From the NCBI RefSeq assembly GCF_004375085.3, contig NZ_SNAQ03000017.1, positions 1 through 64,000 on the forward strand: a DNA stretch of 64,000 bases. Direction: 5' to 3'. The notes under the pieces were generated by a model. That model saw only the letters and a list, made by a program, of their open reading frames with translations. It searched no databases and had not been told where the DNA came from. The translations under genes and the position numbers were made by a program. Below, piece after piece: positions 25,749-38,507 of this stretch. Every line of letters begins with the position of its first letter. The first letter of the stretch is position 1. The DNA is from Lewinella sp. W8. Lineage in GTDB: Bacteria > Bacteroidota > Bacteroidia > Chitinophagales > Saprospiraceae.

Positions 25749-25839
25749 ATTGATATTTATAAGGAGGACTTTAGTGAGGGCGGCGGTCCCGAGTTCCGTT
25801 TGCTCGTCGGGATCACCGATTCTTTACAGAATGCGGCGG

Positions 25840-29815: not shown

Positions 29816-30066
29816 TAGCAGTTTTCCTTTATATTTGGCCCAGGTACCAGACTTCCGCGGTGACTAGTAGCCGGGGGGATGTTATATGGACCGGGCGCGT
29901 TTGCCCGGGCGGGGATTAGGGAGTGCGAATTAGGTAAACAGCAGCTCCCCGAATAAAGTTTTGCCTATCCGACAATTCTCTATACGACGATAGCTTAGCC
30001 GGACAATACCGCCCGCTAAGCCGTCCAAAGGCCCCAAAAGACCTTTTTCAGTGTAAAAGAAGTAGC

Positions 30067-30094
30067 GGGGGCAATTACCGGGGTAATTGCCCCC
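30067..30094 (-). terminator. Strong hairpin after rplL (terminator or attenuator)
   Basis: Arms GGGGGCAATTACC and GGTAATTGCCCCC are perfect and 13 bp long with a minimal loop; outer TAGC/GCTA pairing extends the stem. On the minus strand it is followed by TACTTCTTTTAC, a T-rich tract, just past the rplL stop. It should limit read-through from rplJL into rpoBC, serving the usual excess of L12 over RNA polymerase. The remaining 29816-30060 stretch has no recognised feature. Confidence 0.75.
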
Positions 30095-30121
30095 AGCTAT
30101 TTCTTCAGACAGGAGGCTGAA

Positions 30122-30499
30122 TTACTTCAGCTCAACCGTAGCACCTGCTTCTTCGAGAGCAGCCTTGATGCTTTCGGCCTCTTCCTTAGCAACGCCTTCC
30201 TTGATCGTAGCAGGAGCGCCGTCCACCAGTTCCTTAGCTTCTTTGAGGCCAAGTCCCAGGAGGTTCTTCACTTCTTTTACAACCTTGAGTTTGCTACCAC
30301 CAGCGGATTCGAGTACGATGTCGAAGTCCGTCTTAGCGGCGGCACCAGCGTCGCCACCATCACCGGCGGGGCCAGCAACGGCTACCGCAGCAGCGGCGGG
30401 CTCGATGCCGTACTCGTCTTTCATGATGGTTACGAGCTCGGTTACCTCTTTGATGGTAAGTTCTACGAGCTGTTCGGCGAGGGCTTTTACGTCTGCCAT
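30122..30499 (-). CDS. rplL: Ribosomal protein bL12 (L7/L12)
   Basis: The 125-residue product has the L12 layout: helical N-terminal dimerisation domain ([22 protein letters not shown]), an Ala/Gly-rich hinge (about 35-55), and the compact C-terminal factor-binding domain with [20 protein letters not shown] and [10 protein letters not shown]. It forms the stalk that recruits elongation factors. It follows rplJ by 113 bp and precedes a strong hairpin. Confidence 0.98.
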
Positions 30500-30612
30500 A
30501 ATATAAAGTATTTAAAAGTGATGTACGATAGAGTATCGCGTATCAGCTTGGAAGCCAAAAAATTAATTAAGCGGCAATTGGGTACTCATTAAAAAGTACT
30601 CGTTCACCAGGT

Positions 30613-31140
30613 TTACGCCTCACGCTCTTCGAGCGCCTTGAGGAGGTTGGCGACATTGCTGCCACCGCTTTGCAGGGCACCAAGCAGGTTTTGCATGGGG
30701 CTTTGCAGCAGGGTAAGCAGGTCGCTGATCATTTCCTCGCGAGACTTCAACTTGGACAGTGCGTCCAGTTGCTCGTCGCCGGAGTATACGGCACTGGCAA
30801 TGTAGGCGGCCTTCAGGATGGGGCGTTCGCCGTCTCCACGAAACTCCTTGATTACCTTGGCGGGGGCGTTGGCAACTTCGGCGAACATCAGGGCGGTGGG
30901 GCCCTTCAGCGCGTCAAAAACTGCACTGTAGTTGTTTTCTTCGGGGAAGGTTTCCAGGGCCTTACGGGCCAGGGTGTTCTTCACCACCTGCATGGATACG
31001 CCTTTTTCAAAGCACATTCCGCGCAGCTTATTGGTTTGCTCGACGGTCAGCGTCGAGGCGTCGGCGATGTAGAAGTACTCGTTATTTTCGAAGCGCTCCT
31101 TTAGCTGCTCGATGGCCGCCGCTTTTTCGTTCTTAGTCAT
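30613..31140 (-). CDS. rplJ: Ribosomal protein uL10
   Basis: The 175-residue product is L10, the stalk base that binds 23S rRNA and carries L12 dimers. Recognised stretches are the N-terminal KNEKAAAIEQLKERFENNEYF, the RGMCFEKGVSMQVVKNTLARKA core and the GPTALMFAE strand; the C-terminal helix (ALQSGGSNVANLLKALEER) is the L12-binding part. Only 23 bp separate it from rplA, so no room exists for the long L10 autoregulatory leader seen in E. coli. Confidence 0.98.
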   Translation of the reverse strand: MTKNEKAAAIEQLKERFENNEYFYIADASTLTVEQTNKLRGMCFEKGVSMQVVKNTLARKALETFPEENNYSAVFDALKGPTALMFAEVANAPAKVIKEFRGDGERPILKAAYIASAVYSGDEQLDALSKLKSREEMISDLLTLLQSPMQNLLGALQSGGSNVANLLKALEEREA

Positions 31141-31163
31141 AGTTAACTTACTTTAAGTGACGG

Positions 31164-31856
31164 TTAAGCAATGGATTTCGGGTCTACCTTGATACCGGGG
31201 CTCATGGTAGAGGCCACGGTAACGGATTTGACGTAGGTGCCTTTGGCGCTGGAGGGCTTCATGCGGAGCACCGTTCCCAGCAGTTCATTGGCGTTGTCTT
31301 TCAGTTGGTCGGGGGTGAAACCGACACGACCTACGCTGGAGTGGATGATACCGAATTTGTCAACCCGGAAGGCAATCTTACCGCCCTTAACGTCGGTGAT
31401 GGCCTGGGCAACGTCCATCGTTACCGTTCCGGATTTGGGGTTGGGCATCAGGCCACGGGGGCCGAGTACACGACCGAGACGACCAACTTTAGCCATCGTC
31501 TGTGGCATGGCCACAACAACGTCAAAGTCGGTCCAGCCTTCAGACACCTTGGTGACCATGTCGTCGAGTCCGACGAAGTCGGCACCGGCTTCTTTGGCAG
31601 CCTGTTCCTTATCCGGAGTTACAAAAGCGAGTACGCGCTTGGTCTTACCCGTACCGTGAGGGAGCGTCACCGTGCCACGGAGGGCCTGGTCAGCTTTACG
31701 GGGGTCGATGCCAAGACGCACGTGTACGTCAACCGAAGCGTCGAACTTGGCAGTATTTACTTCCTTCACGAGGGCCATGGCCTCCGCGAGGGTGTACTGC
31801 TTTTCGGCGTCGATTTTCTCAGCGGCGGCCTTGCGGGCCTTACTAAGTTTAGCCAT
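31164..31856 (-). CDS. rplA: Ribosomal protein uL1
   Basis: The start is set at 31856 ([14 protein letters not shown]), giving 230 residues, the normal L1 length; the frame extends 13 codons further upstream without family similarity. Signatures are [32 protein letters not shown] and [15 protein letters not shown]1 binds 23S rRNA at the E-site stalk and often represses its own operon by binding mRNA. Confidence 0.98.
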
Positions 31857-31959
31857 TAGTATAGAAATTTGAGGTGAAGCGCATGCCGGAGGCATGCTCC
31901 CTACATTGATTACAAGATTAGATGAATGCCCGGGAATAGATTACCCGAACGGGGCAGCC

Positions 31960-32403
31960 TTAGGCTTCCCAGGGAGGAGTTCCGTCCACAACGATACCCA
32001 TGGAGCGGGCCGTTCCGGCCACCATTTTCATGCCGCTCTCTACGGTAAAGCAGTTGAGGTCAGACATTTTGTCCTCGGCGATGGCGCGCACCTGGTCCCA
32101 GCTTACCTTGGCAACCTTGTCCCGGTTGGGCTCCTTGGATCCGCTCTTGATCTTTGCGGCTTCCAGCAGCTGAACGGCCGCGGGAGGCGTCTTGATGACA
32201 AAGTCAAAGGACTTATCCTTGTAAACGGTGATGACTACCGGAAGTACTTTTCCGGGGCGGTCCTGCGTAGCGGCGTTAAAGCGCTTACAGAACTCCATGA
32301 TATTGACCCCCTTGGCACCCAGTGCGGGACCTACCGGAGGAGCAGGGTTTGCGGCTCCACCGCGTACCTGTAGTTTGATAAAACCTTCTGCTTCTTTAGC
32401 CAT
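31960..32403 (-). CDS. rplK: Ribosomal protein uL11
   Basis: The 147-residue product has the L11 signatures [20 protein letters not shown] at the N-terminus, [26 protein letters not shown] and the C-terminal [12 protein letters not shown]. It binds the GTPase-associated 23S rRNA region. It lies between nusG and rplA in the conserved order. Confidence 0.98.
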
Positions 32404-32473
32404 TTTAGCTTATTTGCGTCGTACGAGCGAAAACCACGGGGGAATTCTCCGACTATGTTCCAGATGATTGGGG

Positions 32474-33019
32474 TTACGACTGCTTTTCGACCTGCATGAA
32501 GTTGAGTTCCACTTCGGTGCCGCGGCCAAAAATCTTGACGATAACTTTGAGTTTCTTCTTTTCCTCGTTGACTTCCTGAATATCCCCGACAAATTCGTTG
32601 AACGGACCGTCGATGATTTTCACCGTCTCTCCCTCGATGAAGGGTTCGATCATGGTATCATCAGCCTCCAGGTTTTCGTCAACCTTACCGAGCAGGCGGT
32701 TAGCTTCGCTGTCCCGCATCGGGATCGGCTCCGCTTTACCCAGGAAGTGAATAACGTTGGGAAGGCTGGTAATGGCATCCACCAATTCGGCGTTGAGGGC
32801 ATAGGGATCTGCCTCCACCAGGATGTAGCCGGGAAGGATGTTTCGGTCTGAGATAACCTTCTTACCACCGCGAATCTTGTATACCTTCTCGGTGGGTACA
32901 ACGATCTTGGTCACGTGGTTTTCCCAGTTGTTCCGAGCGATCTCCTTCTCGATCCGCTCCTTGATTTTTTTCTCCTTACCGGAGATGACCCGCAATGAAT
33001 ACCATTTGGTGACTGCCAT
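32474..33019 (-). CDS. nusG: Transcription antitermination/termination factor NusG
   Basis: The 181-residue protein has the NGN domain (KWYSLRVISGKEKKIKERIE, then LPGYILVEAD) and a C-terminal KOW domain (GETVKIIDGPFNEFVGDIQE, KLKVIVKIFGRGTEVELNF). It couples RNA polymerase to Rho or ribosomes. It follows secE by 9 bp, the standard secE-nusG pair. Confidence 0.98.
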   Translation of the reverse strand: MAVTKWYSLRVISGKEKKIKERIEKEIARNNWENHVTKIVVPTEKVYKIRGGKKVISDRNILPGYILVEADPYALNAELVDAITSLPNVIHFLGKAEPIPMRDSEANRLLGKVDENLEADDTMIEPFIEGETVKIIDGPFNEFVGDIQEVNEEKKKLKVIVKIFGRGTEVELNFMQVEKQS

Positions 33020-33028
33020 GGAACTTAA

Positions 33029-33220
33029 TTAGACGGCGCCGTAGATAAGGTCTACAACATTTTTCCAAACAAAGTCCATTACCATAATCAGCAGCGCAAA
33101 GATTACGGAGCCGATCAGTACCAGAATGGTGTTGGTCTGAAGCGTGGAGAAGCTGGGCCAGGTCACGTTGTGCACCAGCTCATTGTAGCTTTCCCGCAGG
33201 TAAAGTCCGATTTTGTTCAT
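33029..33220 (-). CDS. secE: Preprotein translocase subunit SecE
   Basis: The start at 33220 gives MNKIGLYLRESYNELVHNVTW, 63 residues, the short single-span SecE form. The conserved amphipathic helix with E-L-x-x-V-x-W-P-S and one transmembrane helix (about 28-50) are visible. The frame extends 16 codons upstream without support. It lies between tRNA-Trp and nusG as in most bacteria. Confidence 0.95.
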   Translation of the reverse strand: MNKIGLYLRESYNELVHNVTWPSFSTLQTNTILVLIGSVIFALLIMVMDFVWKNVVDLIYGAV

Positions 33221-33266
33221 CAGAGGATTATTATGTACGACCAACCGAAGTTGACCGTAATGAGGC

Positions 33267-33407
33267 ACGGGTAGAGAGATTACGTCCGACTAGCGTCAGG
33301 CCGTGAGACCGCTTCGCTAAGTTCGAACTCCCAGCCCCTGGTTTGCCTACGGCGCTGCTTCGCGGTCGCTTGCTATGCGCGGACTGCTGGCGGCGGTTGG
33401 AGACCTG
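33267..33407 (-). pseudogene. Degenerate tRNA-Trp copy L2 (3' part, T-loop and anticodon-loop insertions)
   Basis: On the minus strand the copy runs from GGTCTCCAA (anticodon CCA) through an insertion of about 50 nt, then AACCAGGGGCTGGGAGTTCGA. A second insertion of about 40 nt follows in the T-loop, then the acceptor end CTCTCTACCCGT. The 5' half (acceptor and D arm) is absent. It is the copy farthest downstream of the intact tRNA, just upstream of secE. Confidence 0.75.
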
Positions 33408-33618
33408 AGGCTCGGAGAGAATCTTTCCATCCGAAGTTCTGCACGGGTAGAGAGACTCGAACTCCCAGCCCCTGGTTTCGTTTGCTACGCGGCACGGCTG
33501 CCTGCGGCGGTTGGAGACCTGAAGCTCGGAGAGAATCTTTCCATCCGAAGTTCTGCACGGGTAGAGAGACTCGAACTCCCAGCCCCTGGTTTTGGAGACC
33601 AGTGCTCTACCAATTGAG
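33391..33618 (-). repeat. 114-bp tandem units with tRNA-Trp 3' halves
   Basis: The sequence CGGCGGTTGGAGACCTGA..GCTCGGAGAGAATC.. starts at 33391 and again at 33505, a 114-bp period, and the second unit runs into the intact tRNA-Trp gene. Within the unit the leader GAGAATCTTTCCATCCGAAG and the tRNA 3' half are nearly identical; the insert in the anticodon loop differs between copies. The arrangement looks like tandem duplication that included the 3' half of tRNA-Trp. Confidence 0.8.
33443..33517 (-). pseudogene. Degenerate tRNA-Trp copy L1 (3' half, anticodon-loop insertion)
   Basis: The minus strand reads CAGGTCTCCAA, then about 32 inserted bases, then AAACCAGGGGCTGGGAG and an intact T arm and acceptor end. 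The insertion falls between the positions equivalent to tRNA 37 and 38. The 5' half is absent. Confidence 0.78.
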
Positions 33619-33628
33619 CTATACCCGT
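33556..33628 (-). tRNA. tRNA-Trp (anticodon CCA)
   Basis: A complete cloverleaf: acceptor ACGGGTA/TACCCGT, D arm AGCTC..GAGC, anticodon stem CTGGT/ACCAG with loop CTCCAAA, T arm GGGAG/CTCTC with TTCGAGT, and discriminator G. CCA is not encoded. It is the only intact copy inside the repeat field and sits between tuf and secE as expected. Confidence 0.97.
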
Positions 33629-33666
33629 GTATGGTTATTTCAAAGAGTGCACCTTGCGTTCAAGGT

Positions 33667-33773
33667 GGGTATGGGAACAGCCCCTGGTTGGCCTGCGGCG
33701 CTACCTAAAGGTGGTTGGAGACCAGTGCTCTACCACCACGAAGTAGTCGCGAAGCGCATTGAGCTATACCCGT
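33667..33773 (-). pseudogene. tRNA-Trp-like copy R1 with D-loop and anticodon-loop insertions
   Basis: The minus strand keeps the 5' acceptor ACGGGTA, AGCTCAAT, GGTAGAGC, the anticodon stem and CCA anticodon, and ends in TACCC. It carries about 23 extra bases in the D-loop and about 25 after position 37 of the anticodon loop. The T arm is lost. Confidence 0.8.
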
Positions 33774-33811
33774 GTATGGTTATTTCAAAGAATACACCTT
33801 GCGTTCAAGGT

Positions 33812-33918
33812 GGGTGCGGGGACAGCCCCTGGTTGGCCTGCGCGGCTACCTAAAGGTGGTTGGAGACCAGTGCTCTGCCACCACGAAGTAGTCGCGAAGC
33901 GCATTGAGCTATACCCGT
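33812..33918 (-). pseudogene. tRNA-Trp-like copy R2
   Basis: Same layout as R1, one 145-bp period away: D-loop insert, anticodon-loop insert after position 37, no T arm. The anticodon-loop insert differs from R1 at its GC-rich end (GCCGCG instead of GCGCCG), and the acceptor 3' end has decayed to TGCCC. Confidence 0.8.
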
Positions 33919-33956
33919 GTATGGTTATTTCAAAGAGTGCACCTTGCGTTCAAGGT

Positions 33957-34063
33957 GGGTATGGGAACAGCCCCTGGTTTCGCTGCGCGGCTACCTAAAG
34001 GTGGTTGGAGACCAGTGCTCTGCCACCACGAAGTAGTCGCGAAGCGCATTGAGCTATACCCGT
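33957..34063 (-). pseudogene. tRNA-Trp-like copy R3
   Basis: Same layout as R1 and R2. The end of the anticodon-loop insert reads GCAGCGAAACCAG, different again from the other copies, while the D-loop insert is unchanged. Confidence 0.8.
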
Positions 34064-34206
34064 GTATGGTTATTTCAAAGAGTGCACCTTGCGTTCAAGG
34101 TGTAAAAGACGGCAACGGATTCACCCTGCTTTCAGGGTAAGGTTGCACCTGCGCTTGTCGCAAAAACCGTGCCAAAGGAGGCGAGGAGATGCAGGCAGGT
34201 AAGAAA

Positions 34207-34246
34207 GTGAAAGTTAAGCACCCACCAGAGGGTACTTAACTTTCAC
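34207..34246 (-). terminator. Hairpin terminator downstream of tuf
   Basis: Arms GTGAAAGTTAAG and CTTAACTTTCAC form a 12-bp stem with an inner CCC/GGG pairing; on the minus strand TTTCTTACC follows. A second hairpin (AAGGAATC...GATTCCTT, about 34255-34288) overlaps the tuf stop. Together they should separate tuf from the tRNA-Trp region. Confidence 0.75.
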
Positions 34247-34287
34247 ATCTTTATCAAGGAATCGGGCGGACGCCCGACGTAGATTCC

Positions 34288-35490
34288 TTAAGCGTCGAGT
34301 ACTTCGGTAACCTGACCGGCACCTACCGTACGGCCACCTTCGCGGATAGCGAAGCGAAGACCTTTTTCCATGGCGATCTCGGCGAGCAGCTTAACCTCGA
34401 GGGTTACGTTATCACCGGGCATTACCATTTCCACGTTCTCGGGGAGAGTTACATCACCCGTTACGTCCGTGGTACGGAAGTAGAACTGAGGACGGTAGCC
34501 GTTGAAGAACGGGGTGTGACGACCACCTTCTTCTTTAGACAGTACGTAAACCTCACACTTGAAGTGCTTGTGGGGCTTTACGGAACCTGGCTTACAGATT
34601 ACCATACCACGCTTGATGGCTTCCTTCTCAATACCGCGAAGCAGCAGACCGGCGTTGTCACCAGCTTCACCGCGATCGAGAAGCTTACGGAACATTTCTA
34701 CACCCGTGATGGTGGAGGTCAGTGCCTTCTCACCTTCTTTCTGCATACCCAGGATCTCAACGGGGTCACCAACGTTGATGACACCACGCTCGATACGACC
34801 GGTAGCAACTGTACCACGACCCGTGATGGAGAATACGTCCTCTACGGGCATCAGGAAGGGAAGGTCAACCAGACGCTCGGGCTCGGGAATGTCACTGTCA
34901 ACGGCGGCCATCAGGTCCATGATCTGCTGCTTACCGTCAGCGTCTCCTTCGAGTGCTTTCAGGGCAGAACCGATGATGATGCTTGCGTTGTCGCCGTCGT
35001 ACTCGTACTGGCTCAGCAGTTCGCGTACTTCCATTTCAACGAGTTCCAGCATCTCTTCGTCATCAACAAGGTCGGCCTTGTTCATGAATACTACGATATT
35101 GGGTACACCTACCTGACGAGCCAGGAGGATGTGCTCACGCGTCTGGGGCATGGGGCCGTCCGTAGCAGCAACTACGAGGATAGCTCCGTCCATCTGAGCG
35201 GCACCCGTAACCATGTTCTTTACGTAGTCAGCGTGGCCGGGGCAGTCAACGTGAGCGTAGTGACGGTTCGCGGTTTCGTACTCAACGTGAGCAGTGTTAA
35301 TCGTGATACCGCGCTCTTTTTCTTCGGGAGCGGAGTCGATGCTGTCGTAGGACATAACGTTACCGCCACCAGCAGCTTCGGCCAGTACGGTCGTGATCGC
35401 AGCGGTCAGGGTGGTCTTACCGTGGTCAACGTGACCGATAGTACCGATGTTGACGTGCGGCTTATCTCTATTGAATGTTTCCTTAGCCAT
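34288..35490 (-). CDS. tuf: Elongation factor Tu
   Basis: The 400-residue product delivers aminoacyl-tRNA to the ribosome. GTPase motifs are [11 protein letters not shown] (G1), the RGITI switch I, DCPGHADY (G3), NKAD (G4) and SALKAL (G5). Domain 2 and 3 hallmarks such as [13 protein letters not shown] and [10 protein letters not shown] end the chain. It lies behind four tRNA genes, the same order as the tufB locus of many bacteria. Confidence 0.99.
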
Positions 35491-35644
35491 TACAGGATAA
35501 GATTTAAGGGGATTAAAAAACTAGTTTGGTCAGGGTGCGAACCGCACCCCGGCCGCCCCTATCTGCCGGAAAATCCGGAGACTTTTTGTGACTTGCGGAC
35601 CAAGCCCGCAAATCTGAAATAAAACCTGAATTTCATTCCAAATG

Positions 35645-35716
<72 letters not shown>

Positions 35717-35807
35717 AAATTTCAAGTAGCGGCAACCATCGTTATGGTCGCCCAGTGAAAGCACGCAAGACCAATTTAATGGTCCATCAATACCTCCACC
35801 GTAGTGG

Positions 35808-35880
35808 AGCGGAAGACGAGACTCGAACCCGCGACCCTCAGCTTGGAAGGCTGATGCTCTACCAACTGAGCTACTTCCGC
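35808..35880 (-). tRNA. tRNA-Gly (anticodon TCC)
   Basis: Acceptor GCGGAAG/CTTCCGC, anticodon stem TCAGC/GCTGA with loop CTTCCAA, T-loop TTCGAGT. All arms are intact. Confidence 0.96.
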
Positions 35881-35890
35881 AAGTGATGTT

Positions 35891-35911
35891 TGAGATTTGA
35901 GATTTGAGATT
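35891..35911. repeat. Heptamer tandem repeat TGAGATT x3
   Basis: Three perfect TGAGATT copies followed by a diverged fourth (TGATGTT) lie in the spacer between tRNA-Gly and tRNA-Tyr. The 7-bp unit matches the period of the rpsI-rpsB repeat. Confidence 0.85.
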
Positions 35912-35998
35912 TGATGTTGTTGGGTGCTCACTCTTTCAAGAAAAGCATTTCCCTCAACATCATACGTCAAACGTCGCGTATCAAATATCAAGATAATG

Positions 35999-36080
35999 TG
36001 GGGGTGGTAGGATTCGAACCTACTCAGCCGAAACACTGGATTTACAGTCCAGCCCACCTCTCCAACTGTGGCGCACCCCC
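35999..36080 (-). tRNA. tRNA-Tyr (anticodon GTA)
   Basis: An 82-nt class II tRNA with a long variable arm. Acceptor GGGGGTG/CACCCCC, anticodon stem CTGGA/TCCAG with loop CTGTAAA, discriminator A. Confidence 0.96.
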
Positions 36081-36131
36081 GGTGGTTTCTAGATCACGAC
36101 CAATTTCCCCGGAAGGAAAATGACAATTTTG

Positions 36132-36204
36132 AGCCGATAGACGGACTCGAACCGCCGACCAGCTGATTACAAATCAGCTGCTCTACCAACTGAGCTATAT
36201 CGGC
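36132..36204 (-). tRNA. tRNA-Thr (anticodon TGT)
   Basis: Acceptor GCCGATA/TATCGGC, anticodon stem GCTGA/TCAGC with loop TTTGTAA, T-loop TTCGAGT. First gene of the Thr-Tyr-Gly-Thr-tuf series. Confidence 0.96.
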
Positions 36205-36268
36205 TGATGAGCCGGTGATCTAGGCTATTTTTTCAAGTCAACTCTTGGACGTTTTCCAAAAGCGATTG

Positions 36269-36299
36269 CAAAGGTAAGTCCTTTCTCACAATTGGCAAA
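36269..36299 (-). promoter_or_regulatory. Predicted Bacteroidota promoter of the tRNA-tuf operon
   Basis: The minus strand has TACCTTTG at 36276-36269, matching the TAnnTTTG -7 element, and TTTTG at 36299-36295 in the -33 position, 18 nt upstream. It lies 65 bp before tRNA-Thr. No experimental support. Confidence 0.55.
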
Positions 36300-36310
36300 A
36301 CACCACGAAA

Positions 36311-37240
36311 TTATTTTTTAGTTCCTTTTTTATTCTCTTTTTCGCCGCCGCCTTCCGGGTGCGCCTGTTGGTAGATTTCCCGCAGTCTTCTTACGTTGTT
36401 GTGGGTGTAAAGCTGCGTCGCCGCCAGATTGGCGTGGCCCAGTAACTCCTTGACCGCATTGAGGTCCGCCCCGCCCTCCAGCAAATGGGTGGCAAAGGTG
36501 TGCCGTAGCACGTGGGGACTTTTCTTGTCCTCGGTCGTAAAGGCTTCCAGATATTGCTTTACCCGGTTGTAAACATACTTGGGATACATGGGCTTCCCAC
36601 GATCCGTCAGTAGCAGTTCCGTGATCTCGGGGGCGGCCACCACCTGCTGACGCAAGTGTGCATAATACTCAATCAGCTCCGCCAGGGCCGGACCGAAGGG
36701 AACCAGACGCTCTTTATTTCCCTTTCCGCGAACCGTCAGGCGGCGGCGGTCCATGTCCACGTCCGATTCCCGCAGCCCGATTAATTCGGCCCTCCTCAGT
36801 CCGCAACTATATAATATGGTCAGGAGCAGCTGGTCCCTCAGGGTGGAGAAATCCTGGTTATGGGTGGGGTCCGGGAAAGCGTTGAACAGTCTTTTCATCT
36901 CCCCTCCCCCCACGGCGGTGGGTAAACGACGCCCCACCTTGGGGGTGGGAATCCGTAGCGTGGGATTATCCTTTTGTTGCCCCCTGGCCTGACGATACTT
37001 ATAATAGGCCTTGAGGGCAGACAACTTCCGTCGAATGGTCGTCGCCGCCATCCCCTCTTCCACCATCTGGGCCAGCCAGCTTTTCACCATCGCCCGGTTC
37101 ACCTCCCTGGCCTGGCTTACTTCGTACTGAAGTTCGCAGTAGCGGGCAAACTGCCGCAAATCTCCCTCGTAGGCCAACAGGGTGTGGTCACTTAGTCGCC
37201 GCTGATGGCGCAGGTGGGCCAGAAATTCGATAAACTGCAC
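36311..37240 (-). CDS. Tyrosine recombinase of the XerC/XerD type
   Basis: The 309-residue protein has an N-terminal SAM-like core-binding domain (FIEFLAHLRHQRRLSDHTLL) and the catalytic domain with all expected residues: R in CGLRRAEL, K in GKGNKERLVPFG, H-x-x-R in SPHVLRHTFATHLL, H in LGHANLAATQLY, and the nucleophilic Y of QLYTHNN. The length equals that of chromosomal Xer proteins that resolve dimers at dif. No dif site was recognised in the window. XerC and XerD cannot be told apart here. The lysine-rich C-terminal tail is unremarkable. Confidence 0.9.
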   Translation of the reverse strand: MQFIEFLAHLRHQRRLSDHTLLAYEGDLRQFARYCELQYEVSQAREVNRAMVKSWLAQMVEEGMAATTIRRKLSALKAYYKYRQARGQQKDNPTLRIPTPKVGRRLPTAVGGGEMKRLFNAFPDPTHNQDFSTLRDQLLLTILYSCGLRRAELIGLRESDVDMDRRRLTVRGKGNKERLVPFGPALAELIEYYAHLRQQVVAAPEITELLLTDRGKPMYPKYVYNRVKQYLEAFTTEDKKSPHVLRHTFATHLLEGGADLNAVKELLGHANLAATQLYTHNNVRRLREIYQQAHPEGGGEKENKKGTKK

Positions 37241-37260
37241 GGGAGCGGTGATTCAATGAT

Positions 37261-37448
37261 GTGTGATGAAAATCCACTGGTCTGACCAGACACTCCTTGC
37301 CCCCCGATAGCTATCGGGGGGCAACGTCATGTACCGTTCAGACCAGGGTTTAACCGTGGTCGGCGCTGTTTCGCGAAGGCGTAACCGAGTGAAACGGCGT
37401 CCGAACACTTTTAGACTCAGCATCCCAGGCGCGAAATTTTTGTCACCC
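37261..37448. mobile_element. MITE-like element, family B, copy 1
   Basis: A 188-bp gene-less segment with imperfect terminal inverted repeats (GTGTGATGAAAATCCAC at the left; GGGTGACAAAAATTTCG read inward from the right). About 76 bp at its right end match the left end of the element at 42057-42248 in inverted orientation with roughly 90 percent identity. The middle holds palindromes (TGGTCTGACCA, CCCCGATAGCTATCGGGG). No clear target duplication was seen. Confidence 0.7.
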
Positions 37449-37490
37449 CAGATTCTTTGAGTAACCCAACAAAGCTACGGCTCAATTCTG

Positions 37491-38507
37491 CTACTGGCCA
37501 CCGATGCGGGCCATCCCCTGCTGGGCCAGCTCGTAGTCGGGGGCAAAACGCAGGGCCGTTTCGTAGTCCCGCCGTGCCTTCGCCGTATCTCCCAATACTT
37601 CGCTGGCGTACCCCCGGAAGAAAAATCCCCGGATGTGGACGGGGTCATTCTGGATCACGAGGTTAAACTCCTCGTAGGCACGGGCCGCGCTGTCTAATTC
37701 CATCAAAAGTAAGCCGGCGTTAAAGTGCCCGGCCACGTACTGCCGGTCCGCCAGGCTGGCCTGCCGGTAGGTTTCGATGGCCTCGGGCAGCTTCCCAATA
37801 TCCCGGAGATAGTCCGCCTTGGCGTGCAGGGCATAAACGTCCTCGGGGTCAATGGCCACCGCCGCATCAAAGTACTGTTCGGCCCGCGGCAGTCCCTTCG
37901 CAAACAGCAGTTGCCCCAGGGTGATGTAGGCGTCAATCATGTCGGGATCAATCTGCGTGGCCTCCTCGGCCGCCTTGATCGCGCGGGCCGTATCCCCCGT
38001 TTCTTCGAACACCTGACTGAGGAGCAGGTAGGCATCCGGATTACGGGGATCAATCCGGGTGGCCTCATTCAGGGAGCCAATGGCATCTTCATATTGCTTT
38101 AACTGTAGCTGGGTTTCCGCCAGTCGTAGCTGGGTTTCCACAAGATCGGGGTCCAGGGCCGCCGCTCGTTCCAGCGTCCGGAGGGCCAGGCGACTCCGGT
38201 AATACTCCATGTATACGTCGCTCAGGTTGTAGTGATAGGGAATATTGGTGCTGTCGATGGACAGCGCTACCCCCAGGTCGGCAATGGCCGCCTCGTAGTT
38301 CCGCTTGTCGTAATGCATGGTCGCCCGCTGGGCGTAGAGGTCCGCATTTTCGGGGTTCTGGGCAATGGCCTCCGTCAGGCGGGCAATCCCCGGATCACTG
38401 CTGACGGGTACTTCCGCCCCGGCTGTTTCGGTAGCGGGTTGATCCGGCTCACAGGCAGCCAGTAAGAAAAGGAAGCAAAACAAAGTGCAATAAAGGAGTC
38501 GATTCAT
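37491..38507 (-). CDS. TPR lipoprotein
   Basis: The start at 38507 places a lipoprotein signal at the N-terminus (MNRLLYCTLFCFLFLLAAC, lipobox LAAC). The mature part (about 338 residues in all) is an array of about seven to eight TPR units, for example AIADLGVALSIDSTNIPYHY, NPDAYLLLSQVFEETGDTAR and AYITLGQLLFAKGLPRAEQY. It should be a lipid-anchored periplasmic scaffold. No enzymatic domain is present. An upstream -7-like TACCTTTG lies 23 bp before the start. The family is too general for a functional call. Confidence 0.85.
   Translation of the reverse strand: MNRLLYCTLFCFLFLLAACEPDQPATETAGAEVPVSSDPGIARLTEAIAQNPENADLYAQRATMHYDKRNYEAAIADLGVALSIDSTNIPYHYNLSDVYMEYYRSRLALRTLERAAALDPDLVETQLRLAETQLQLKQYEDAIGSLNEATRIDPRNPDAYLLLSQVFEETGDTARAIKAAEEATQIDPDMIDAYITLGQLLFAKGLPRAEQYFDAAVAIDPEDVYALHAKADYLRDIGKLPEAIETYRQASLADRQYVAGHFNAGLLLMELDSAARAYEEFNLVIQNDPVHIRGFFFRGYASEVLGDTAKARRDYETALRFAPDYELAQQGMARIGGQ

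Follow-up and report, generated by a model that had tools for sequence, protein, structure and literature searches.

Interrupted partial copies of tRNA-Trp and a dispersed 22–24 bp element in the genus Neolewinella

A bacterial tRNA-Trp gene that is surrounded by incomplete copies of itself, each interrupted in the anticodon loop, raises the question of whether the inserts are introns, parts of functional RNAs or mobile DNA. The locus lies in a stretch of 64,000 nucleotides from Lewinella sp. W8 (contig NZ_SNAQ03000017.1, positions 1–64,000; here called the window) and had been singled out in an earlier note made from the sequence alone. The genome of the window, G000 below, is one of 21 genomes of Neolewinella (Lewinellaceae, Bacteroidota) that were compared. 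The partial copies have probably arisen by tandem duplication within the gene, followed by insertion of a 22–24 bp Neolewinella element into the dispensable copies, and this element looks like mobile DNA and not like a tRNA intron.

The tRNA-Trp locus and its partial copies

Read along the minus strand, the genes run tRNA-Thr, tRNA-Tyr, tRNA-Gly, tRNA-Thr, tuf, an array, tRNA-Trp, an array, secE and nusG, with the following features around the tRNA-Trp gene.

33029–33220, minus strand: secE, the downstream neighbour (translation and tblastn match, ends set by hand)
33266–33428, minus strand: outer 3'-half copy of tRNA-Trp on the downstream (secE) side, ends approximate; anticodon-loop insert 33344–33396, T-loop insert 33280–33322
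33442–33542, minus strand: inner 3'-half copy of tRNA-Trp on the downstream (secE) side, ends approximate; anticodon-loop insert 33478–33510
33556–33628, minus strand: intact tRNA-Trp (cca), the sole uninterrupted copy at the locus (ARAGORN and Rfam, 71.2 bits)
33650–33667, also 33795–33812, 33940–33957 and 34085–34102, minus strand: leader hairpin CACCTTG-AACG-CAAGGTG before each unit
33668–33773, minus strand: 5'-partial copy 1 of tRNA-Trp on the upstream (tuf) side, T-arm lost; D-loop insert 33736–33757, anticodon-loop insert 33690–33714
33813–33918, minus strand: upstream 5'-partial copy 2; D-loop insert 33881–33902, anticodon-loop insert 33835–33859
33958–34063, minus strand: upstream 5'-partial copy 3; D-loop insert 34026–34047, anticodon-loop insert 33980–34004
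34288–35490, minus strand: tuf (EF-Tu), the upstream neighbour (translation, ends set by hand, and tblastn)

The description in the earlier note of one intact tRNA-Trp at 33556–33628 among at least five degenerate copies was borne out by ARAGORN, Rfam, TRF and the mapping of remnants, all on the minus strand; ARAGORN and Rfam call the start of the intact gene at 33555 or 33556 and its end at 33628. The 'exact 145-bp tandem array' was recovered by TRF as an array of that period (33613–34102, 3.4 copies, 95% matches) but is not exact, its copies showing 95–96% identity to the reference copy, while the two 3'-half copies reported at a spacing of 114 bp correspond to a direct repeat of 97% at 33384–33478 and 33498–33592. 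Each 145-bp upstream unit consists of a leader hairpin and the 5' part of tRNA-Trp with inserts in the D loop and the anticodon loop, and since the T-arm is missing the upstream copies are not whole tRNAs. The placement of inserts in the D and T loops, and in the anticodon loop of every copy, was also as described: the anticodon-loop insert separates GGTCTCCAA from AACCAGG in all five copies of the window, the D-loop insert is present in all three upstream copies and a T-loop insert of 43 nt occurs in the outer downstream copy.

The tip of the leader hairpin reads TG-AACG-CA, and by eye such hairpins precede trnW units in several relatives, with stems that differ yet pair; no further TG-AACG-CA hairpin with at least five pairs was found in the 367,746 bases of the window's own genome that were scanned. 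Directly after tuf, positions 34200–34253 form a long, terminator-like inverted repeat of 17 pairs with a T-rich tail, and sequences resembling it were seen by eye to follow tuf in many relatives.

We compared 30 tuf–trnW–secE loci, 21 in Neolewinella and nine outside it, reading the spacers by eye. The gene order is kept wherever the contig reaches, L011 lacking tuf and L015 lacking secE at contig ends. Partial trnW copies are present in 14 of the 21 genus genomes (L001–L003, L006, L010–L012, L015, L016, with a remnant only, L017–L020 and L023), so that comparison of the same locus in relatives, proposed in the earlier note, shows the array to be more than chance. No partial copies were found at the seven loci L004, L005, L007, L008, L009, L013 and L014, nor in the spacers of any of the nine loci outside the genus. 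At the genus loci the intact trnW is flanked by 5'-partial copies upstream and by 3'-partial copies downstream, an arrangement that would follow from tandem duplication with a break within the gene and retention of a single intact copy. The 3'-half copies occur in seven genomes, all of one clade in the tuf–secE–nusG tree, and upstream copies are found on either side of this tree, also in the branch closest to the outgroup; the upstream copies may either have arisen once, long ago, and been lost several times, or have arisen repeatedly. Bases 6–7 (TA, TG or CG) match those of the own genome in 23 of the 24 upstream copies that fit a loose 5'-end pattern and were scored, the exception being in L015; this agreement suggests that gene conversion or renewed duplication has been at work. 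By eye, the element described below is missing from some copies: the two upstream copies of L018 contain a D-loop insert only, and the three upstream copies of L023 bear near the D arm a perfect palindrome, TCCCGATAGCTATCGGGA, in its place.

The 43-nt T-loop insert of the window falls outside the 22–24 bp element family. A stretch of 24 nt from it (33299–33322) is identical in three of the 21 genomes at four places, all at trnW, the matches being G002:C24:75729–75752 and G006:C33:36092–36115 and 36273–36296, and the surrounding spacers differ. With these first 24 nt of the insert confined to four trnW places, its interpretation as a second dispersed family was rejected.

A dispersed 22–24 bp element and its insertion sites

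The element exists in a long form of 24 bp (CCNCCGNAGGNAGCNNCGNAGNNN) and a short form of 22 bp, and is made up of two adjacent mini-hairpins with GNA triloops. Searches with a long-form pattern derived from the anticodon-loop inserts, CCNCCGNAGGNAGCNNCGNAGNNNA, found it with at most one mismatch in all 21 genus genomes, with 3–74 matches in each against 0–2 per genome for the backward control. The element is numerous in G002, G005, G006 and G014 and sparse in G011 and G013. When no mismatch was allowed, 19 of the 21 genus genomes contained the long form as against one of the 377 others of the family (backward control, one of 398), and the stems of the lone match outside the genus lack proper pairing by eye. 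The 22-bp short-form pattern, CCNCGNAGNAGCNNCGNAGNNNA, was found without mismatch in 18 of 21 genomes, up to 51 times in each, the backward control giving one match in total. In the own genome of the window the 71 long-form matches obtained at up to two mismatches are near chance (54 in the backward control), 15 of the 71 having no mismatch, and a loose single-hairpin pattern run over some 286 kb of own sequence proved too unspecific.

Because the patterns put no constraint on the variable paired positions, pairing is a fair test there, and the G and A of the loops are largely fixed by the patterns themselves. Among 108 distinct long-form sequences, taken like the short-form ones from the places that came first in the searches and so not a random sample (187 contexts with at most one mismatch), positions 3:11 pair in 94 (53.6 expected from the margins), 15:23 in 92 (40.9 expected) and 16:22 in 89 (75.0 expected). 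The 25 distinct short-form sequences (29 contexts) show pairing in 23, 25 and 24 cases against 9.0, 6.6 and 9.6 expected, and the N of the short-form loop takes all four bases. At L106, L081, L160 and L165 the element appears by eye to lie within reading frames, which its 24 bp would preserve.

The 21 trnW spacers contain 25 element matches (long form with at most two mismatches, short form with at most one). On the sense strand there are 16, of which 15 directly follow the CTCCAA of the anticodon loop and one is nested; the nine on the antisense strand are all of the short form and lie in the D loop after CA. The D-loop and anticodon-loop inserts are thus of one kind, an element that lies in the two loops in opposite orientations. 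In the window the D-loop elements, whose GNA strand is antisense to the tRNA, are placed as follows.

33736–33757, likewise 33881–33902 and 34026–34047, plus strand: short-form (22-bp) element in the D loop (short-form pattern, one mismatch, three of three copies)

The anticodon-loop insert of the inner downstream copy (33478–33510) is a long-form match with two mismatches, and that of the outer downstream copy (33344–33396) holds a short-form element nested inside it, without mismatch. The three upstream anticodon-loop inserts of the window have a first loop of 4 nt and give no match to the strict pattern at two mismatches; we assign them to the element by eye and with a loose pattern, as the D-loop inserts of L012, L015 and L019 were assigned by eye. 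The inserts had been thought to differ from copy to copy. Most of them are instead related, as one element in two orientations with one nested case, and when sought elsewhere in the genomes most proved to belong to an element dispersed across the genus, so that the suggestion of an element inserting into tRNA loops largely stands.

The same pattern is found at other tRNA genes, where interrupted tRNAs were located via the element patterns only. On one contig of G002 (C50, L121) five 3'-partial copies of 80 bp stand in tandem after tRNA-Asn and a single 3'-partial copy stands after tRNA-Asp, each with the element in its T loop. A second tRNA cluster of G015 (C10, L102) contains a whole tRNA-Ser(tga) and a whole tRNA-Met(cat), both interrupted in the T loop by the element; ARAGORN recognises the two solely when the element is left out, and Rfam detects the tRNA-Met weakly (29.8 bits). 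Elsewhere in G015 there is a further tRNA-Ser(tga), and the anticodon CAT is found in three more genes, so that the two interrupted genes are redundant, and these spare genes rule out that they are sole copies in G015. Additional groups of tRNA genes, unusual and in part degenerate, were observed in G015 (C10, L102) and in G000 (C11:160455–161251, L058). One tRNA gene is present three times in tandem with equal scores at G000:C11:199483–200037 (L059) and at G015:C15:54215–54654 (L309), the triplicated gene of G015 being tRNA-Glu (ttc).

Filled and empty sites suggest a clean insertion with no visible target duplication, whether trnW is compared with its copies, units with and without the element are compared in the tandem array of L080, or the comparison is made at tRNA-Asn and tRNA-Asp. 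When 170 contexts (at most two mismatches) were grouped into 66 clusters, 55 of these had an A at −1 and 63 had one at +1. In tRNA sequence the targets lie between A37 and A38 in the anticodon loop; for insertions on the opposite strand they are T16/T17 in the D loop and T54/T55 in the T loop. A larger hairpin repeat, dispersed in G000 and reading GCACCTGCGC...GATCCCGACGAG...AACTCGGGACC, carries near its apex all 15 zero-mismatch long-form copies of that genome, 13 in one orientation and two in the other. This larger repeat has 15 filled and five empty copies (four of them aligned), which differ at the junction by one further base, and one of the empty copies is in the window.

25785–25811, minus strand: empty copy of the larger dispersed hairpin repeat, without the element at its apex

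The element is found in addition in spacers, other repeats, tandem octamers and apparently coding sequence; because many copies are carried by larger repeats peculiar to one species or lie in tandem octamers, independent insertions are fewer than copies.

The junction lies inside a loop closed by a stem of at least five pairs in nine of the 66 clusters, against 2.33 expected from shifted positions (P 0.0005). With the seven tRNA-derived clusters removed the figures are seven of 59 against 2.02 (P 0.0018), and for a wider loop range ten of 66 against 2.8. Compared with other A/A sites in the flanks, a test that left out clusters with no A/A site or with fewer than five control sites, seven of 54 junctions lie in hairpin loops (2.03 expected, P 0.003), or five of 47 after removal of the tRNA loci (1.55 expected, P 0.014). 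This modest excess may partly reflect the carriers, as some of the hairpins are themselves dispersed repeats, and the majority of contexts are not clear hairpins, many being tandem octamers or spacers. All six tRNA sites (two in trnW and one each in trnN, trnD, trnS and trnM, thus five genes) are in loops, with P 0.00024 under uniform placement and P 0.045 given an AA/TT target. Positions of AA/TT largely account for the loop placement in tRNAs. The loop targeting proposed earlier therefore stands in that six of six tRNA sites are in loops and is weaker than claimed once AA/TT is required, and targeting in a strict sense is weakened by the AA/TT-matched nulls.

Origin of the array

In archaea and eukaryotes tRNA introns usually lie at position 37, and the anticodon-loop inserts follow this position. 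Intron-like spacers would be removed from the RNA, and the copies would either give functional tRNA-Trp or be relics of intron-bearing tRNAs. However, the intact trnW has no insert, the upstream copies are without a T-arm and the downstream copies without a 5' half, while the same element is found in D and T loops and in the many places outside tRNAs given above. None of the seven Rfam matches up to E 1 in the interval 30000–38000 is an intron, group I and group II included. An intron of archaeal or eukaryotic type was rejected, since an uninterrupted trnW stands beside the partial copies and the interrupted complete genes of G015 are redundant; the intron-like spacers put forward in the earlier note are thus very improbable. 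That the array is an artefact of assembly is scarcely credible: tandem repeats do misassemble easily, but 14 of 21 separately assembled genomes have an array at this place with copy numbers and spacers of their own, and most inserts match a dispersed family.

In a functional RNA array, conserved and structured long hairpins made of half a tRNA would act as decoys, processing signals or regulators in the tuf–secE operon. Two upstream units have a fold z of −2.35 and −3.57 and a downstream copy one of −2.38, the units of several species are by eye preceded by a leader hairpin whose stem varies but stays paired, and the 24-nt stretch of the T-loop insert does not differ between three species; the persistence of the trnW copies through much of the genus, together with their good folds, could indicate a function. 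The intact tRNA-Trp itself, however, has a z of −2.06, and good folds with unit hairpins are expected without selection where copies of one element in opposite orientation provide complementary inserts. The array is also missing from seven of 21 genomes, ranges from one to six copies and differs between clades in the sequence after the anticodon arm. No promoter-like site was found in 33000–34400, and the two terminator-like sites, one of them a leader hairpin, are no excess over the 1.6 in shuffles, so that the separate transcription units and tRNA-derived small RNAs suggested earlier are not upheld. We consider a functional array quite improbable.

A mover of a known type is offered by the possibility that the 22–24 bp unit is a REPIN-like element, a REP variant moved by a Y1 (RAYT-type) transposase. 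Genes for Y1_Tnp are present in 20 of the 21 genomes, one such gene in G000 has an empty larger repeat some 200 bp downstream of it (C91, L278 about 2220) and an element copy lies near one of the 20 Y1 loci inspected among 70 matches. The numbers of Y1_Tnp genes, however, do not follow the element copy number in the 21 genomes (rho 0.20, P 0.38): G018 has three element matches and no Y1_Tnp match, and G006, with the most element matches (74), has two Y1 matches. The element moreover has two short GNA hairpins rather than one stem of 5–13 bp with an unpaired GTAG tag. With no correlation of counts, and an element near one of the 20 inspected loci, Y1/RAYT is an improbable mover, and a REPIN-like origin is unlikely.

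The preferred explanation is duplication within the gene followed by insertion. Tandem duplications with one breakpoint lying in trnW would have left the intact gene with 5'-partial copies upstream and 3'-partial copies downstream, and gene conversion would keep the tRNA parts of the copies like the intact gene. In a second step the 22–24 bp element would insert into the dispensable copies, precisely and mostly between two A's, presumably moving in the form of a folded single strand, by means of an enzyme that is provided in trans. The partial trnW copies would then be by-products and not functional RNAs. GNA triloops, as in the d(GCGNAGC) fold, are exceptionally stable in DNA, and this stability together with the enriched hairpin contexts favours single-stranded DNA, so that the moving strand is more likely to be DNA than RNA; a literature search on the term GNA triloop found nothing. 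A more specific proposal can be made tentatively and is, on balance, doubtful, namely that a unit of single-stranded DNA is recognised by its two GNA-triloop mini-hairpins and moved in trans into A/A sites, preferably in loops of folded strands, redundant tRNA genes serving as landing pads across the genus. If this single-strand proposal were correct, and with the same reserve, the 22–24 bp unit would rank among the smallest transposable units known.

Relation to known small repeats and significance

A length of 22–24 bp is much less than that of RPE-1. The closest kind of repeat is the small dispersed repeats (SDR) of Nostoc, which Elhai and colleagues reportedly described in 2008 as units of 21–27 nt with a structure showing compensatory changes and a restricted host group, and which are said to lodge in tandem short repeats and to show nested insertion. 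The Neolewinella element resembles these SDR in size, covarying structure, restricted hosts and precise insertion, and it too is nested in places and sits within short tandem repeats. In the terms that define SDR, it is a sharp-ended dispersed unit of about 21–27 nt, has a structure supported by compensatory changes and is confined to one taxonomic group (19 of 21 against one of 377, within the family). It differs, as far as a comparison by description goes, in its Bacteroidota host, its double GNA-triloop mini-hairpin, its A/A target and its presence in tRNA-derived loops. For SDR5, precise insertion inside HIP1 is described in the accessible part of PMC4390886.

REP sequences, as given in Table 1 of PMC3733652, have a single stem of 5–13 bp (GTAG) or 8–9 bp (CGTC) and an unpaired tetranucleotide tag. 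In the portions available of PMC3116915 and PMC3733652, REP/REPIN–RAYT systems share with the Neolewinella element short dispersed hairpin repeats, partly in doublets, and Y1 genes are present in the genus; the element differs in its two stems of 2–3 bp with GNA triloops, in having no conserved unpaired tetranucleotide tag and in the lack of a correlation with Y1 counts. Membership of REP/REPIN was rejected on stem and tag, as these are defined in the same portions. Mitochondrial double-hairpin and repetitive hairpin-forming elements are likewise potentially mobile and present in spacers and sometimes inside genes, according to the part of PMC2800124 available; these belong to organelles of other lineages and, in that part, conserve their stems and change in their loops, whereas covarying stems belong to the Neolewinella element. 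The Rickettsia palindromic elements, as treated in the accessible part of PMC3733652, are palindromic and also insert into genes, the Neolewinella element having 22–24 bp. A precedent for palindromes as landing sites is provided by insertion sequences that target palindromic repeats (PMC1525189, in the part available).

In the literature searched, with partial coverage of journals, no earlier description was found of this repeat or of such a tRNA array in Lewinella or Neolewinella. The wider question is by what route units that have no room for any coding sequence spread in bacterial genomes. The element has sharp ends, a target dinucleotide and two size classes; occupied and unoccupied sites coexist in one genome, copy numbers range from a few to dozens and, within the family sample, the element is restricted to one genus. 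These traits make its movement and the enzyme responsible directly testable. For tRNA genes, the locus indicates that intron-like inserts in loops can come from mobile-looking DNA entering redundant copies.
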